Assembly (NCBI GenBank): GCA_015059495.1
Contig: SVAI01000001.1
Location: forward strand, 186,001 to 250,000
Source of the DNA: Bacillota bacterium
GTDB taxonomy: Bacteria > Bacillota_I > Bacilli_A > RF39 > UBA660
Reading direction: 5' to 3'
DNA: 64,000 nucleotides
Part shown: piece after piece, positions 43,401 to 53,166 of the stretch
How positions within the stretch are numbered: position 1 is the stretch's first letter
Layout: every line of letters begins with the position of its first letter
The notes under the pieces: generated by a model
The model's input: the letters and a program-made list of their open reading frames with translations, nothing else
The model's database searches: none
What the model was told of the DNA's origin: nothing
Program-made: the position numbers and the translations under genes

Positions 43401-45251
43401 ATGAAAAATAAGTGTTTTAATTTAATTGTAATAGTTGCAACAGTTTTAGTAATAACTTTAGTGGCAACAACATCGTATGCCTATTTTACAGCAACAGTAC
43501 AAGGTAATAATGAAGTAAATACGTCTGTTATTACAACTGGAAATATGTCTTTAACTTTTATTGATGATTCAGTTGTTGGATTATACAATATGTATCCAAC
43601 TCAATCAGTTGAAAAGGAATTCTATATTGAAAATACAGGTGAAGTAGAATCTAACTATGACGTATATTTTTCAAATATAATAAATGACTTTGCAGATAAG
43701 AGTGATTTAGTGTATATAGTAGAATCACTTAGTGGAGAAAATTTAACTGCTGGATGCGAAGTTTTATCACAAAGAATAGTTCCATCAATATCTAATGAAG
43801 AATCAAAAATTATTTCTTCGTGTCCAATCGGAGTAGGCCAAAAACATGGATATAAACTTACAATAGTTTTTGTTGATGATGGTACAAATCAAGATGATAA
43901 TAAAGGAAAACATTTTAGTGCTAAATTAAGCGTTAATGAAGTATATCAACAAACAGAACAAATAGCATACTTACAACCTGGACCTATGTTTAACGAAAGT
44001 ATGAAGGTATTATCTAATGCTTCAACTTCTAATAGAAATGAAGGCGATATAGAGGGTTTTGAAGGTGCAAACTTGTATATAAACGACAGAAAACTAGGAT
44101 ATAATTATGTAGTAGATGACAGTATTAAATACATTACTATTTCTAATACTGCACCTCAAGCAAGTGATAATGCAATTAAAGTAAATGATGTTACATCATA
44201 TTATGATATATATGCTTGGTATAAAAATAATACAATATATTTATATACTGAAGCAGATGAAATATATTTAAACTTAGATAGTGCATTTACATTCTTTAAT
44301 CTAAATGGAATGGAATCTATAGATTTATCTATATTCAATACTTCAAAAGTATATACAATGGATTTTATGCTAGCTGAAATGTCAAATTTAAAAAATATAA
44401 ATTATGGTAGTAATTTTAATACATCAAATGTAAGATATATGGCCGGATTATTTGATGATGATATTTCATTAACATCTCTTGATGTATCATCATTTGATAC
44501 CTCAAAAGTTATTACTATGATGAGCACATTTAACCATATTGCTTCACTAGAATCACTTGATGTATCTAGTTTAAACACTTCAAATGTTAAGAATATGGAT
44601 TATATGTTTAATGAATTGAACATAGAAACTTTAACTCTAGGATCTAATTTTAATACTTCAAAAGTAACAAGCATGAAGTATATGTTTGCTGGTTGTAAAA
44701 ATTTAAAAAGCTTAGATTTATCAACATTTAACACATCTAATGTAGAAGGCATGGCAGGTATATTTGTAGCTTGTAATAAAATAAAAACATTAGATCTTTC
44801 ATCATTTAATACTTCAAAAGTTACTAGTATGAAGCAAATGTTTAAAGAAATGACAGGATTAGAGTCTTTGAATCTAGGAAATAATTTTGATACATCTAAT
44901 GTAACAAATATGCATCAAATGTTCGCATACTTAAAAAAACTAAGGATTCTTAATCTAGGATCTAAATTTAACGTATCTAAAGTTACAAATGGATATGACA
45001 TGTTCCAAAATCCTTCAGGAGTCTTAACAACAATCTATTCAACAAATGATTTAGTTTATGCTCCAGGTGCTAATATAAATAATATGTTCTGGAGTACTAG
45101 AACACTTGTAGGTGGTAAAGGGACAGCATATAGTTCTCAACATGATCATGGCGATTATGCTGTTATAGACTGTGGAACTAAGAGACCAGGTTATTTAACA
45201 TTTAATGGTACTGAAGAAGAATATGAACAATTTTGTTCACAATTTGATTAA
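43401..45251 (+). CDS. DUF285 surface protein, array copy 2, SipW-type N-terminus
   Basis: The 616-residue product has the same plan as copy 1: hydrophobic segment to TTSYAYFTATVQGNNEVNTS, a TasA-like domain with FYIENTGEVESNYDVYFSN and DDGTNQDDNKGK, an added 40-residue stretch near 200-245, and about eight DUF285 units (SFDTSKVITMMSTFN and similar). The C-terminus AVIDCGTKRPGYLTFNG plus EEYEQFCSQFD is identical to copy 3. The ribosome site is weak (AGGA well upstream of the ATG). It is monocistronic. Confidence 0.84.
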   Translation: MKNKCFNLIVIVATVLVITLVATTSYAYFTATVQGNNEVNTSVITTGNMSLTFIDDSVVGLYNMYPTQSVEKEFYIENTGEVESNYDVYFSNIINDFADKSDLVYIVESLSGENLTAGCEVLSQRIVPSISNEESKIISSCPIGVGQKHGYKLTIVFVDDGTNQDDNKGKHFSAKLSVNEVYQQTEQIAYLQPGPMFNESMKVLSNASTSNRNEGDIEGFEGANLYINDRKLGYNYVVDDSIKYITISNTAPQASDNAIKVNDVTSYYDIYAWYKNNTIYLYTEADEIYLNLDSAFTFFNLNGMESIDLSIFNTSKVYTMDFMLAEMSNLKNINYGSNFNTSNVRYMAGLFDDDISLTSLDVSSFDTSKVITMMSTFNHIASLESLDVSSLNTSNVKNMDYMFNELNIETLTLGSNFNTSKVTSMKYMFAGCKNLKSLDLSTFNTSNVEGMAGIFVACNKIKTLDLSSFNTSKVTSMKQMFKEMTGLESLNLGNNFDTSNVTNMHQMFAYLKKLRILNLGSKFNVSKVTNGYDMFQNPSGVLTTIYSTNDLVYAPGANINNMFWSTRTLVGGKGTAYSSQHDHGDYAVIDCGTKRPGYLTFNGTEEEYEQFCSQFD

Positions 45252-45341: not shown

Positions 45342-45383
45342 TTAAGTGATAATGAATAAAATAAGAAAGTGAATAATAGCGAT

Positions 45384-46958
45384 ATGAAAAGAAAATATGT
45401 TAAAACATTAATTGTTGTGGCGGCACTTTTAATTTTATCTTTAGTAACAAGTGCATCATATGCGTTCTATGTTGCATACGTACATGGAAATGAAAATGCA
45501 AATAATACAGTTATTACAACAGGAGATATGCAATTGTTTTTTCAAGATGGTGGCGTAATAACTTTAGATAATGCCTATCCAACAAAGTCAGTTGAAAAAT
45601 ACTTTGGAATTGTAAATGCTGGAGATTTGCCAGCAACATATGATTTATATTTATCAGAAATAATTAATAATTTTGCAGATAAGAATGATTTAGTATATAC
45701 AATTGAAAGTGTAACACTAGATCCTGAGTTTCAATTCTTACCTTCAGAGCAAGGATGTGATGTAACAACTCAAACTGTAGTTCCAAGTCAAGTAGGAGAC
45801 TCATCAAGAATTGTTTCATCTTGTCCTATAGGAGTAGGAAAACAACATGCATATAAAATAACTTTCACATTTAAAGATGACGGAACTAATCAAGATGACA
45901 ACAAGGGTAAAGGATTTAGAGCTAAGATTAGTGTAAACGAATATAAAGAAGCAGAACAAATAGCTTTATTAGAAGCAGGACCTTCATTTAATAATCATAT
46001 TAAATCATTAGCAGGAACTTTACCAGGAAGTGATCCATTAACTGATTTTACTAATGAATATCACCATCCACAATGGAATAATACTCCAGATATGGAAAGT
46101 AGAGGAGCAGACGCTCTAACAGCAACTAAAGATAACAATATTAAACATTTTATTGTTAGTACTACTGCACCATCTGCAAGCGATAATGCAATAAATGTTA
46201 ATAGTCCTATATCATATTATGATATTAAAGCTTGGTATAAAAATAATACAATTTATTTATATACAACAGCAGATAAAATATATTTAAATGAAAATGCAGC
46301 ATTTACATTCTCTGGTTTACAAGAACTAATAGATTTAGATTTAACTAAGTTTGATTCATCAAGAGCATTTGACTTATCATATTTATTTTCGGAAGATTAT
46401 AAAATAAAAAGTATAGATTTAAGTTTGTTTGATACAACAAATGCTGTAGATACATCACGAATGTTTTATGAAGCAAAAAGTTTACAATCACTTGATATAA
46501 GTAGTTTTGATACAAGGAATGTAAGTAATATGAGACAAATGTTTAAGGGATTAAGAACTGCAAAAACATTAAATCTAGGAGATAATTTTTATACATCAAA
46601 AGTAACAAATATGTATCAATTATTTCAAACTTTACGTGGCATAGAAACTCTAGATCTTGGATCACACTTTGACGTATCAAATGTAATTGATGCTAGAGAT
46701 ATGTTTCAAGTCAGCGGTGAAACTTCTATTTTTAAAACAATATATTCAACACAAGATTTAATTTTTTCATCAGCTGATTCTACATCATATATATTTTGGG
46801 GCAATCCTGAATTAAAAGGTGGATATGGAACATCATACAGTCTTGCTAAATCACATGGAGATTATGCTGTTATAGACTGTGGAACAAAGAGACCAGGATA
46901 TTTAACATTTAATGGTACTGAAGAAGAATATGAACAATTCTGTTCTCAATTTGATTAA
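45384..46958 (+). CDS. DUF285 surface protein, array copy 3, SipW-type N-terminus
   Basis: The ATG at 45384 aligns with the starts of copies 1 and 2 (MKRKYVKTLIV against MKNKYVKILII); the GTG at 45369 is a less likely alternative because the sequence AGAAAGTG that would serve as ribosome site overlaps it. The product has 524 residues. It shares SASYAFYVAYVHGNENANNT, DDGTNQDDNKGK, and the C-terminal AVIDCGTKRPGYLTFNG plus EEYEQFCSQFD. It has only about five DUF285 units, fewer than copies 1 and 2. Unlike them it lacks the GAAGAG terminator and runs towards the valS T-box. Confidence 0.83.
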   Translation: MKRKYVKTLIVVAALLILSLVTSASYAFYVAYVHGNENANNTVITTGDMQLFFQDGGVITLDNAYPTKSVEKYFGIVNAGDLPATYDLYLSEIINNFADKNDLVYTIESVTLDPEFQFLPSEQGCDVTTQTVVPSQVGDSSRIVSSCPIGVGKQHAYKITFTFKDDGTNQDDNKGKGFRAKISVNEYKEAEQIALLEAGPSFNNHIKSLAGTLPGSDPLTDFTNEYHHPQWNNTPDMESRGADALTATKDNNIKHFIVSTTAPSASDNAINVNSPISYYDIKAWYKNNTIYLYTTADKIYLNENAAFTFSGLQELIDLDLTKFDSSRAFDLSYLFSEDYKIKSIDLSLFDTTNAVDTSRMFYEAKSLQSLDISSFDTRNVSNMRQMFKGLRTAKTLNLGDNFYTSKVTNMYQLFQTLRGIETLDLGSHFDVSNVIDARDMFQVSGETSIFKTIYSTQDLIFSSADSTSYIFWGNPELKGGYGTSYSLAKSHGDYAVIDCGTKRPGYLTFNGTEEEYEQFCSQFD

Positions 46959-49789: not shown

Positions 49790-49811
49790 TAATAATAGGG
49801 AGATGAGATAT

Positions 49812-50357
49812 ATGACATATGTTATTATTGGGGTAATAGTATTAATAATTCTATATATAATTGTAACCATTAATTCTATTATTAAGCTTAGAAATAGAGT
49901 TGATGAATCTTTTTCTACAATGGATGTATACCTAAAAAAGAGATGGGATTTAATACCTTCGATTGTCGAAGTAGTAAAAGGTTATTCTAAACATGAAAAT
50001 GAAACTCTAAAAGATGTAATATCATTAAGAAATAATACTTATGATAATTTAAATACTAATGAAAAAATAGATACTAATATTAGAGTTAGTGAAAGAGTTT
50101 CTAAATTAATGATTTTAGCAGAAAATTATCCAGAATTAAAAGCATCTGATAATTTTAAGCAATTAACTAATCAATTAACTCAAGTAGAGGATGAAATATT
50201 AAAAGCAAGAAAATATTATAATGCTAATGTTAGAGTATATAACACAAAAATAGAAATGTTTCCTAATAATTTAGTTGCTGCTTTATTTAATATTAAATCT
50301 AGAAATATGTTTGAGGCTAAAGAGGAAGAAAAAGAAAATATTAAAATAGAATTGTAG
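49812..50357 (+). CDS. lemA: LemA family membrane protein
   Basis: The ATG at 49812 suits GGGAG at 49798-49802; the ATG at 49803 is too close to it. The 181-residue product has an N-terminal membrane span (about 3-24), then the long helical LemA domain with NRVDESFSTMDVYLKKRWDLIP, LTNQLTQVEDEILKARKYYNANVR and YNTKIEMFPNNLVA. LemA proteins are often encoded with DUF2207 or TPM-domain proteins, as here. The biochemical role is unknown. It is the first gene of an apparent lemA-DUF2207-radical SAM unit. Confidence 0.93.
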   Translation: MTYVIIGVIVLIILYIIVTINSIIKLRNRVDESFSTMDVYLKKRWDLIPSIVEVVKGYSKHENETLKDVISLRNNTYDNLNTNEKIDTNIRVSERVSKLMILAENYPELKASDNFKQLTNQLTQVEDEILKARKYYNANVRVYNTKIEMFPNNLVAALFNIKSRNMFEAKEEEKENIKIEL

Positions 50358-50365
50358 GAATAAAA

Positions 50366-52183
50366 ATGGAAATCATTGGAGTTTATTTATTAATTTTAAT
50401 TATAGGAATAATTGATAAAGTATTCTTTGTAGGACCTAATTCAAGGTATCGTAAATTAAAAATAGCATCAGTAATAATACTTTTAATAGGATTAGGAATT
50501 GGTGTATATTATGGATTTAAAATTTTAAATAATAGCAAACCAATAGGAAATGATGGTGTTTCAGTTTCTTCTGGATTTGATATCAATTCATATGAAGTAG
50601 AATTAGATGTTCAAAAGAATAATAAAATTGATGTTACAGAAAGAATAGAGACATATTTTAAAACTACTGGAAAACATGGTATTTACAGATTTATACCATA
50701 TTGGTCTGAATATACATCATCAGATAAAAAAATAATGTCAAGAAGAGCAGATATTTCAGATATTAAAGCAATAGGGGAAAAATATACTTTAGATACTGTT
50801 AAAGGTAAGAAAAGAATAAAAATAGGTAGTGCATCTAAAACATTACCAATAGGAACACATAATTATTTAATTCAATACAATTATGATTTTGGAAAAGATC
50901 CATATAAAGGTTTTGATGAATTAATATTCCATTGTTATGGTGATTATTGGGGAACAAGTATAAATAATCCGAGTGTTAAGATAAGATTGCCTCAAGAAGT
51001 AGATTTAAATAATAAAATAAATTTATATACTGATAAGTATAGAGAGAAGAACGTTAATGATAATTTTATTATTAAATATGATAAAAATATAATTAATATT
51101 AATCCTAAACCAGGTGTTTCACTAACAAATGCACTTACAGTAAGTATTAAATTACCAGAAAATTATTTTAGTTCAAGTGTATCCGGTATATTTGGTATGT
51201 CATTCTTAATATGTTTATTTTGTATATTTGTAGCTATATTTGCAGTAAAATCATGGTTCAAAGTTGGAAAAGATTTTAAAGATATAGAAACAGTAGAATT
51301 CTATCCTCCATACCAATTTGATGCTGCACAAGTAGGATACATTAATAGTTCATTGGTAGGTGGTAAACTAATTGGTGCCTTAATTGTAGGTTTGGCTGCA
51401 AAAGGATATATTTCAATAGAAAAAAAAGGATATAATCATTATATCCTTAAAAGAGAAAATAAAAACTTTGCTCTAGATCCAATAACAACAAATGAACAAA
51501 TGGTATTAGATCAATTATTTTATGGTGATAACTTCTTAGAAACAGAATTACCACTATCAACAACAACTACTATTATAAAAGATGTAGAAGATAATCTAGT
51601 TAAAACACTAGATGATCAATTGTATAATAAAAAATCATATAATTTAATGTTAGTATTTTCAATCTTATTTGCCGTATGTAATTTAGCATTAGGAATTGCA
51701 TATACTTCAATTAAAGATATGGATGCATCATTTAACTTCTTATATTTAATAGCATTAATATCTAATGCTGTAACATTTATATTTGCAGGATTATTAAAGA
51801 GTAATACTCAATTTAGTGCATCAATTAAAGCAAAAATAAAAGGGTTCAAAAGATATCTAGAACTAGCTGAAAAAGAACAAATTGAAGCACAAGCACAAGA
51901 TAATCCATACTTATTTTATGATATATTACCATATGCCTATGTTTTAGGTATTACAAAAATATGGATAGATAAATTTAAAGTTATTCCACTACCAAAATAT
52001 GATACTGGAAACTTTGATTTTACAAATGTAGAAAGTATAAATGATATTTCAAATGACATTAGTAGAAATTCATACACATCAACATCATCATCATCATCTT
52101 CTAGTGGATGCTCATCATGTGGTGGTGGATGCTCATCATGTGGTGGCGGTTGCTCATCGTGCGGAGGTGGTGGATCATGGTAA
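50366..52183 (+). CDS. DUF2207 membrane protein with CSSCGGG-repeat tail
   Basis: The 605-residue protein begins with a membrane span pair, then the DUF2207 external domain (INSYEVELDVQKNNKIDVTE, GKHGIYRFIPY, about 70-265), then a span, a cytoplasmic WH-like part (EFYPPYQFDAAQVGYI), two more spans near 430-475, and a soluble end. The tail is a Ser run followed by three exact CSSCGGG units and GSW (Cys582, 585, 589, 592, 596, 599). DUF2207 tails are usually Gly/Ser-rich; the regular Cys pairs are the special point. The radical SAM/SPASM gene overlaps the last 7 bases, and its ribosome site GGAGGTGG lies inside the tail codons. Confidence 0.88.
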   Translation: MEIIGVYLLILIIGIIDKVFFVGPNSRYRKLKIASVIILLIGLGIGVYYGFKILNNSKPIGNDGVSVSSGFDINSYEVELDVQKNNKIDVTERIETYFKTTGKHGIYRFIPYWSEYTSSDKKIMSRRADISDIKAIGEKYTLDTVKGKKRIKIGSASKTLPIGTHNYLIQYNYDFGKDPYKGFDELIFHCYGDYWGTSINNPSVKIRLPQEVDLNNKINLYTDKYREKNVNDNFIIKYDKNIININPKPGVSLTNALTVSIKLPENYFSSSVSGIFGMSFLICLFCIFVAIFAVKSWFKVGKDFKDIETVEFYPPYQFDAAQVGYINSSLVGGKLIGALIVGLAAKGYISIEKKGYNHYILKRENKNFALDPITTNEQMVLDQLFYGDNFLETELPLSTTTTIIKDVEDNLVKTLDDQLYNKKSYNLMLVFSILFAVCNLALGIAYTSIKDMDASFNFLYLIALISNAVTFIFAGLLKSNTQFSASIKAKIKGFKRYLELAEKEQIEAQAQDNPYLFYDILPYAYVLGITKIWIDKFKVIPLPKYDTGNFDFTNVESINDISNDISRNSYTSTSSSSSSSGCSSCGGGCSSCGGGCSSCGGGGSW

Positions 52184-53166
52184 AAGAATTTATTTTACAA
52201 TGGCACATTTCTGAAGTATGTAACTTAAAATGTAAGCACTGTTATCAAGAAGATCATGTATGTAAAGTATTAAAATACGATAAACTAATGATAATATTAG
52301 AACAATATAAAGAACTATTAAAAAAGTTAAAAGTTAAAGGTCATATAAACTTAACTGGAGGAGAACCTCTATGTTCTCCTTACTTTTTTAAACTATTAGA
52401 GCAATTTAAAAAAGACAGTGATTTATATAGTTTTTCTATATTAACTAATGGAACATTAATAACTGATGAAATAGCAAAAAAAATAAGTGAGTATAATCCA
52501 CAATATGTTCAAGTTAGTTTAGAAGGATCTAAAAAAACTAATGATTATATACGTGGAAAAGGCGTATATAAAAAAGTAGGTAAAGCGTTATTATATTTAA
52601 AAAAATATAATATATTTACTTCTATATCATTTACTGCTACTAAGATAAACTATCAAGAATTACCAAGTGTAGTTAAGTTTGCAAGAAAATATAAAGTTGA
52701 TAATGTTTGGACAGATAGGTTTATCCCATTAGGTTCTGCATTTGATAAAGATTTTGTATTGTCGCTTGATGAAACAAAAAAATATATAAAAATATTACAA
52801 AAAGAAAAAATAAATAATATTAATAAAAAGAGTAAGACATCAGTATCTATGAATAGAGCTCTACAATTTTTAAAGACAAATAATTTGGCATACTCATGTA
52901 GTGCAGGTAAGAATCTATTAACAGTAATGGAAAATGGAGATTTAGTGCCATGCAGAAGAATGCCAATAGTTGTAGGAAATTTATTTAAAGACAGTATGTA
53001 TAATTTATATAAAAATAATAAAGTATTAAAAGAATTAAGAGAAGACAATATACCTAGTGATTGTAAAAAATGTGAATACTCAAATAGATGTAGGGGTGGC
53101 CTTAAGTGTTTAACTTATGCAATCTATGGAGATTTAGATCATAAGGACATTGGATGTTATATGTAA
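52177..53166 (+). CDS. Radical SAM/SPASM-type peptide maturase candidate
   Basis: The start is the ATG at 52177 (MVKEFILQWH), placed right before the domain and 8 bases after GGAGGTGG; the frame upstream is the shifted Cys/Gly tail of the preceding gene. The 329-residue product has the SAM-radical cluster CNLKCKHC (Cys15, 19, 22), NLTGGEPL and SFSILTNGT. The C-terminal SPASM-type region has Cys in AYSCSAGK, VPCRRMP, DCKKC, NRCRGG, KCLTYA and DIGCYM, enough for auxiliary Fe-S clusters. Such enzymes install thioether or carbon cross-links in peptides or act as sulfatase maturases. Overlap with a CSSCGGG tail makes that tail the obvious candidate substrate. Confidence 0.88.
   Translation: MVKEFILQWHISEVCNLKCKHCYQEDHVCKVLKYDKLMIILEQYKELLKKLKVKGHINLTGGEPLCSPYFFKLLEQFKKDSDLYSFSILTNGTLITDEIAKKISEYNPQYVQVSLEGSKKTNDYIRGKGVYKKVGKALLYLKKYNIFTSISFTATKINYQELPSVVKFARKYKVDNVWTDRFIPLGSAFDKDFVLSLDETKKYIKILQKEKINNINKKSKTSVSMNRALQFLKTNNLAYSCSAGKNLLTVMENGDLVPCRRMPIVVGNLFKDSMYNLYKNNKVLKELREDNIPSDCKKCEYSNRCRGGLKCLTYAIYGDLDHKDIGCYM

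Follow-up and report, generated by a model that had tools for sequence, protein, structure and literature searches.

A SPASM radical SAM enzyme paired with cysteine-rich tails of DUF2207 and other membrane proteins, and a proposed modification of these tails

A radical SAM enzyme with a SPASM domain, encoded directly behind a DUF2207 membrane protein, probably modifies the cysteines in the repetitive tail of that protein, with the tail staying on the membrane protein and thioether cross-links as the likeliest chemistry. The pair was found in a stretch of 64,000 nucleotides from a Bacillota bacterium of the gut (hereafter the window), in which the relevant features are the following:

49803 to 50357, plus strand: LemA-family membrane protein of 184 aa (Pfam PF04011, E 9.5e-50)
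50366 to 52183, plus strand: DUF2207 membrane protein of 605 aa (PF09972, E 5.1e-18; PF20990, E 2.8e-25), the proposed substrate
52109 to 52180, plus strand: Cys/Gly tail CSSCGGG-CSSCGGG-CSSCGGG-GSW, predicted to be disordered and cytosolic, the proposed modified region
52163 to 52167, plus strand: GGAGG, the ribosome-binding site of the enzyme as read from the sequence, within the Gly codons of the third CSSCGGG unit
52177 to 52183, plus strand: overlap of seven bases, ATGGTAA, joining the start codon of the enzyme and the stop codon of the DUF2207 gene, as read from the sequence
52177 to 53166, plus strand: radical SAM/SPASM enzyme of 329 aa (PF04055, E 3.4e-23; PF13186 SPASM, E 1.4e-7), the proposed modifier of the tail
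52219 to 52242, plus strand: CNLKCKHC, the CX3CX2C motif of the radical SAM 4Fe-4S cluster, its Cys invariant in 16 orthologues
52897 to 53157, plus strand: seven SPASM Cys (C241, C259, C296, C299, C305, C311 and C327) of two auxiliary clusters, assigned by conservation

The DUF2207 protein possesses both Pfam domains above cut-off, five membrane helices and the Gly-rich C-terminus that is typical of its Cys-less relatives, while the NCBIfam scan returned no match for it, and hence none to TIGR04222. Its C-terminus is GCSSCGGGCSSCGGGCSSCGGGGSW, the last 26 residues being SGCSSCGGGCSSCGGGCSSCGGGGSW, and contains three exact CSSCGGG units at residues 582-602 (nucleotides 52109-52171), and the three units had been described in a sequence-only reading of this DNA. 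In the AF2 model five helices are followed by a disordered end, in which residues 567-605 have a pLDDT below 50, near 32. The tail side of the membrane helices is rich in Lys and Arg.

The enzyme gene starts at the ATG at 52177, as opposed to the mechanical start of the open reading frame at 52108. That it overlaps the last seven bases of its neighbour, with its ribosome site inside the tail, had also been claimed earlier and is borne out by the sequence. GGAGG stands ahead of the enzyme start in 38 of 47 loci, while the repeat unit one step upstream has it in 23 of 47, and the overlap NTGGTAR recurs in all 16 loci of the window's family that have the pair and in about 55 of the 58 loci of the DUF2207-type enzyme branch, the latter count having been tallied by eye from locus listings. 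The assignment of the enzyme to the radical SAM/SPASM proteins follows from the CX3CX2C motif, from PF04055 and PF13186 scores above cut-off, from the seven SPASM Cys, which are invariant among the 16 orthologues or absent just in one truncated sequence, and from its fold, which fits the partial TIM barrel of such enzymes: the AF2 model (pTM 0.84) finds its best PDB matches in SkfB, SuiB, anSME and PqqE, all of which modify peptides or proteins, and SkfB is the top match by both sequence and fold. Membership in an existing NCBIfam maturase family was rejected, every score being far below cut-off: the highest-scoring model, SbtM, gave 153.6 of the 350 bits required, the ACGX maturase model TIGR04340 gave 144 of 400, and the PapB model NF047865 gave 106 of 340. 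The related enzymes described below are likewise accepted by no NCBIfam maturase model, with the same trend towards SbtM. No RRE or leader was identified for the enzyme and tail pair.

Enzyme and tail occur together without exception inside the window's family. Among 386 genomes of this family that were searched for the enzyme, 16 genomes from 14 genera hold an orthologue with 61-100% identity, and the next matches fall to about 31%. The tails were sought separately in the same 386 genomes by a DNA pattern for C-x-x-C-G-G-G: C-S-S-C-G-G-G was found in exactly the 16 genomes with the enzyme, always directly before the enzyme gene, and a further 16 genomes gave single, unrelated matches to the wider pattern. 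The probability that two sets of 16 in 386 coincide at random is about 10^-27.9 with ancestry ignored, a value which overstates the significance because the genomes are related. Co-occurrence across genomes was the check that had been proposed from the sequence alone, and Cys tails and enzyme are concordant throughout the family. A chance motif was rejected as an explanation on account of the confinement of the tails to the 16 genomes with the enzyme and of the conservation of the tail residues. When the pattern was sought in 392 genomes, most of them from the same class, four unrelated matches turned up besides the window's own. The valS gene and/or the integrase gene, which flank the cassette in the window, are retained in three congeners, but lemA, the DUF2207 gene and the radical SAM gene are missing there; one congener (G004) has other genes in the interval from valS to the integrase gene.

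Comparison of the coding sequences demonstrates, at this level, that selection acts on the Cys residues of the tail and that tail and enzyme co-diverge. The 55 distinct tail DNA sequences encode just 21 protein versions, in which Cys -7, Gly -6 to -3, Ser -2 and Trp -1 are invariant and other positions of the units rarely change, with codons varying freely. The distances of DUF2207 protein and enzyme correlate between pairs (r 0.89; 0 of 2000 permutations), with a mean identity of about 47% for the DUF2207 body and 70% for the enzyme. Tails differ in their number of repeats: most have two or three exact units and a few have one (as in L166) or none, a variation also seen in known repeat substrates. 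The idea that the tail is kept merely as a carrier of the ribosome site was rejected, given that Cys residues far upstream of the site are conserved and both Cys codons are used; it is also contradicted by locus L167 (gene order LemA, enzyme, DUF2207), in which the Cys tail is kept with no enzyme gene after it.

For the DUF2207 tail we infer a cytosolic location. The carriers are multi-pass proteins of 600-730 aa, and for 14 of 15 of them the positive-inside rule predicts a tail that faces the cytosol. The DUF2207_N proteins, which adjoin related enzymes elsewhere (see below), have a hydrophobic N-terminal segment, an outside domain and one helix followed by the tail, with more Lys/Arg on the tail side in 11 of 11, narrowly in some. 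For the TIGR04222 partners the rule gives an ambiguous side.

On a DUF2207 tree built without the tail sequences, none of the 47 Cys-less proteins lies near an enzyme gene, whereas each of the 20 Cys-tailed proteins does. Where relatives lack the enzyme, their DUF2207 proteins have Gly-rich ends free of Cys, for example GGGFGGGFSSGGGFGGGGGGGRF. The nearest of these already end in GGSW, the -GSW end being common to both groups, and the Cys units therefore took the place of a Gly/Phe tail. Second DUF2207 proteins, Cys-less and with no enzyme nearby, are present in the window's genome and in two others (G042 and G043); the one in the window's genome (G000:C1:473655-473825; L108:1362-3050 on the reverse complement) has the tail SSGGGGFSSGGGGGGSFGGGGGGGGFR, common to the sister species examined. 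On DUF2207 proper the Cys tail was gained once on the tree, and so a test on independent pairs has no power there; the perfect match within DUF2207 thus amounts to one evolutionary event kept since. Support that is independent of this event is provided by the occurrence on three host types, by horizontal spread, by the second family and by genomes that have or lack the cassette.

This wider distribution was obtained by scanning 84,980 species genomes with the alignment of the 16 enzymes, which returned 80 related enzyme loci from several phyla, many of them from metagenome-assembled genomes and with some contigs present in both collections used. At least 55% identity is reached at 57 of the 80, from uncultured Bacilli and Pseudobutyrivibrio including isolates, and all of these except L133 adjoin a DUF2207 protein with a CSSCGGG-type tail. 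The other 23 loci (39-47% identity) come from Clostridium (including C. ljungdahlii), Acetivibrio, Ruminococcus-type MAGs, Thiomargarita, Bacteroidetes, a deltaproteobacterium and others, and adjoin different membrane proteins, which Pfam and NCBIfam identify mostly as DUF2207_N or TIGR04222 proteins, with tails of the types (CSSC)nGGGGAD, GCSSGCSSG or GGCGGCGGGGD. Four of the five TIGR04222-type partners scanned pass the TIGR04222 cut-off (L171, L173, L177 and L189), and L168 fails it. With the window's locus included, a Cys/Gly/Ser tail adjoins the enzyme in 78 of 81 cases, again as tallied by eye. The exceptions are L133, in which the tail is shortened and out of frame (L133:1627-2070), by assembly collapse or as a real pseudogene, a condition seen at no other core locus; L174, with no partner on a contig of 3.5 kb; and L169, whose genome encodes five TIGR04222 proteins elsewhere, at least three of them Cys-tailed. 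In the enzyme tree the 81 tail-associated enzymes form one branch (support 92), the sister of the ACGX maturases, and its sub-branches match the host protein and the end of the tail (GSW, GGAD or GGCGGD). The Cys spacing likewise differs by branch (CSSCGGG, CSSCSSC, GCSSGCSSG and CGGCGG). The enzyme lies upstream of its apparent target in L170, L176, L182, L183, L187 and L188. A prospective second test covered 198 genomes of another family: two of them have (Cys)GGGGAD tails, and precisely these two also gave a match to the enzyme (E below 1e-80).

These results bear unequally on the sequence-only reading, which had proposed that the tail of a LemA/DUF2207 membrane system may be cross-linked. 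Modification of the tail, of which cross-linking would be the likeliest form, gains from the co-occurrence within the family and its repetition in the second one, while the restriction to LemA and DUF2207 does not stand: LemA, whose gene lies upstream at 19 of 43 related loci, was rejected as a constant partner, and the same enzyme branch adjoins Cys tails of DUF2207_N and TIGR04222 type.

At L184:1-3999 three consecutive membrane proteins with different sequences, each with a (CSSC)n/GGC tail, precede a single enzyme gene, and one enzyme may serve several targets there. One of the two genomes from the second family has an additional membrane protein with a (CSSC)nGGGGAD tail, encoded on a contig without an enzyme match (G878:C42; L227, L230); since the enzyme of this genome adjoins another such tail protein, action in trans is suggested. 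At L181:8458-8577, 3.5 kb downstream of the enzyme, lies an open frame of 40 codons of CSCGCTGG repeats, which may be a separate gene for a Cys-rich peptide or noise.

The pairing suggests that the tail is the substrate of the enzyme. In the mechanism that we propose, the membrane protein would carry from its synthesis onwards a C-terminal tail of Cys-Ser-Ser-Cys-Gly-Gly-Gly units, disordered and lying in the cytosol, and the overlapping gene would provide a cytosolic SPASM radical SAM enzyme, which would use S-adenosylmethionine and its iron-sulfur clusters to abstract hydrogen atoms from residues of the tail. The Cys residues would thereby be altered unit by unit, most likely through a thioether that joins the Cys sulfur to a carbon atom in a Ser or Gly close by. 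Among the Cys modifications made by SPASM-type enzymes thioethers are the most frequent, and from this we infer the type of bond, a thioether cross-link. The acceptors of SCIFF enzymes lie among Asp, Glu and Thr; none of these three residues is present in the tails, and the acceptor would therefore have to be Ser or Gly. The tail would be neither cut off nor exported and would remain on the membrane protein, with metal binding, redox sensing or stabilisation as its candidate roles. No third gene is constant across the 16 family loci, and a two-gene system is the simplest reading.

The main rival to the thioether is the formation of heterocycles, as by MNIO enzymes. We consider it unlikely, although it deserves more weight than the alternatives below, that the Cys residues are modified in some way other than a thioether, by a thio-oxazole-like or other change of the backbone or by epimerisation; the product would be a tail that binds metal as the MNIO-made bufferins do. 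The top NCBIfam model, SbtM, is named for a thio(seleno)oxazole modification, though its score is far below cut-off and the name is itself a database prediction. TIGR04222 Cys tails were predicted in 2025 to be MNIO substrates, and the Cys-derived thio-oxazoles of bufferins bind copper (PMC12452194). No MNIO gene (PF05114) was found in the window's genome, and of 16 genomes that hold an enzyme of the wider branch 15 have none either, as if one enzyme had replaced the other. The nearest folds point away from this chemistry: the solved SPASM enzymes SkfB, SuiB and anSME form thioethers or C-C bonds, or else oxidise Cys/Ser, and are not known to make thio-oxazoles.

Two further explanations dispense with a modified tail that stays in place. 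On the one hand, the tail might be unmodified, its Cys residues binding a metal or an iron-sulfur cluster directly, with the enzyme linked to it through a common process or joint translation. CxxC pairs are indeed common metal ligands, and a ribosome site within the tail codons could link the two genes by translational coupling alone. The linkage, however, persists where the gene order is swapped (L167, L170, L176, L183, L187 and L188) or the genes are separated (L169), and shared translation is therefore not the reason for it; in addition, a SPASM enzyme needs a substrate, which no conserved third gene supplies, and a Cys spacing that varies between branches would be unusual for a fixed metal site. 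We regard this explanation as improbable. On the other hand, the tail might be a RiPP core, which the cell would modify, cleave off the membrane protein and set free as a small peptide. A C-terminal core beside a SPASM enzyme has a RiPP-like appearance, and the ACGX maturases of the nearest branch have, where a partner is seen, a small repeat peptide. Against this, no peptidase or exporter gene, of the sort that serves leader cleavage and the usual export in RiPP pathways, is common to the 16 loci, the carrier is a large multi-pass protein whose tail is mostly predicted to be cytosolic, and the -GSW end is shared with Cys-less relatives that have no enzyme, so that we give release of a peptide very little credence.

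A modified tail retained by its membrane protein, the reading that we prefer, has its closest counterpart in the MNIO-TIGR04222 systems, in which a multi-pass membrane protein with a C-terminal Ser/Gly/Cys tail is likewise found next to a Cys-modifying metalloenzyme, and some partners of the SPASM branch are TIGR04222 proteins above cut-off, as in those systems. The enzyme classes are nevertheless unrelated, and the TIGR04222 tails have been placed in the periplasm, i.e. outside (PMC12452194), whereas the DUF2207 tails are predicted to be cytosolic; that paper mentions neither SPASM nor DUF2207. The ACGX system resembles ours in a Cys-Gly repeat target beside a SPASM enzyme, the enzymes being sister branches, but its target is a small peptide, while the window's enzyme neighbours a protein of 605 aa with CSSCGGG units. 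The ranthipeptide maturase PapB and the sactipeptide maturase SkfB are also SPASM enzymes with Cys-containing targets, but these are short precursor peptides, and the bond made by PapB runs from Cys to Asp or Glu (PMC9413430), acceptors that the tails here do not contain. Like the proposed system, anSME, which is among the best fold matches, and QhpD act on a protein and release no product; the target of anSME is the active-site Cys/Ser of a sulfatase, in contrast to the repeated tail of a membrane protein here. QhpD acts on a quinohemoprotein subunit.

The literature searched, which left many subscription papers outside its scope, contains no report of a SPASM enzyme with DUF2207 or with such Cys tails, in agreement with the earlier statement that a maturation of this kind is undescribed for the DUF2207 family. 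What we rate as new is the proposed SPASM modification of a Cys repeat on the tails of resident membrane proteins, across three host families. We lean slightly towards a broader view, in which a dedicated SPASM branch rebuilds the Cys/Gly/Ser tails of unrelated or distant membrane proteins across phyla, the tails staying cytosolic, and MNIO enzymes have reached the same solution independently on TIGR04222 tails. If so, modified tails that span phyla could sense metals or redox state or act as a stable anchor. Most of the SPASM enzymes whose peptide targets are known work on short precursors that end up outside the cell, whereas the apparent target here, the tail of a multi-pass membrane protein, stays. 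The pairing sets two unrelated enzyme classes beside one kind of tail and gives the first concrete lead, in the literature searched, on what purpose DUF2207 and TIGR04222 proteins with low-complexity tails, both widespread, may have. The branch includes the culturable Pseudobutyrivibrio ruminis DSM 9787 and Clostridium ljungdahlii, which makes the chemistry directly testable.

Two minor observations concern other genes of the same genome. It also holds an ACGX-type SPASM maturase (G000:C1:733279-734301; L107), 32% identical to the window's enzyme, of which near-identical copies with the same next gene downstream are present in two other genera (G351 and G012; L109 and L110), so that the whole resembles a recently exchanged cassette. 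An ACG-repeat peptide was seen only beside the group of enzymes with 31% identity (L047); it precedes the ACGX maturase at L047/L109. In the window itself, positions 43401-45251 and 45369-46958 encode adjacent BspA-like surface proteins with leucine-rich 'SSFNTSKV' repeats and the same last 30 residues (AVIDCGTKRPGYLTFNGTEEEYEQFCSQFD), and this common end is possibly an attachment or processing signal.
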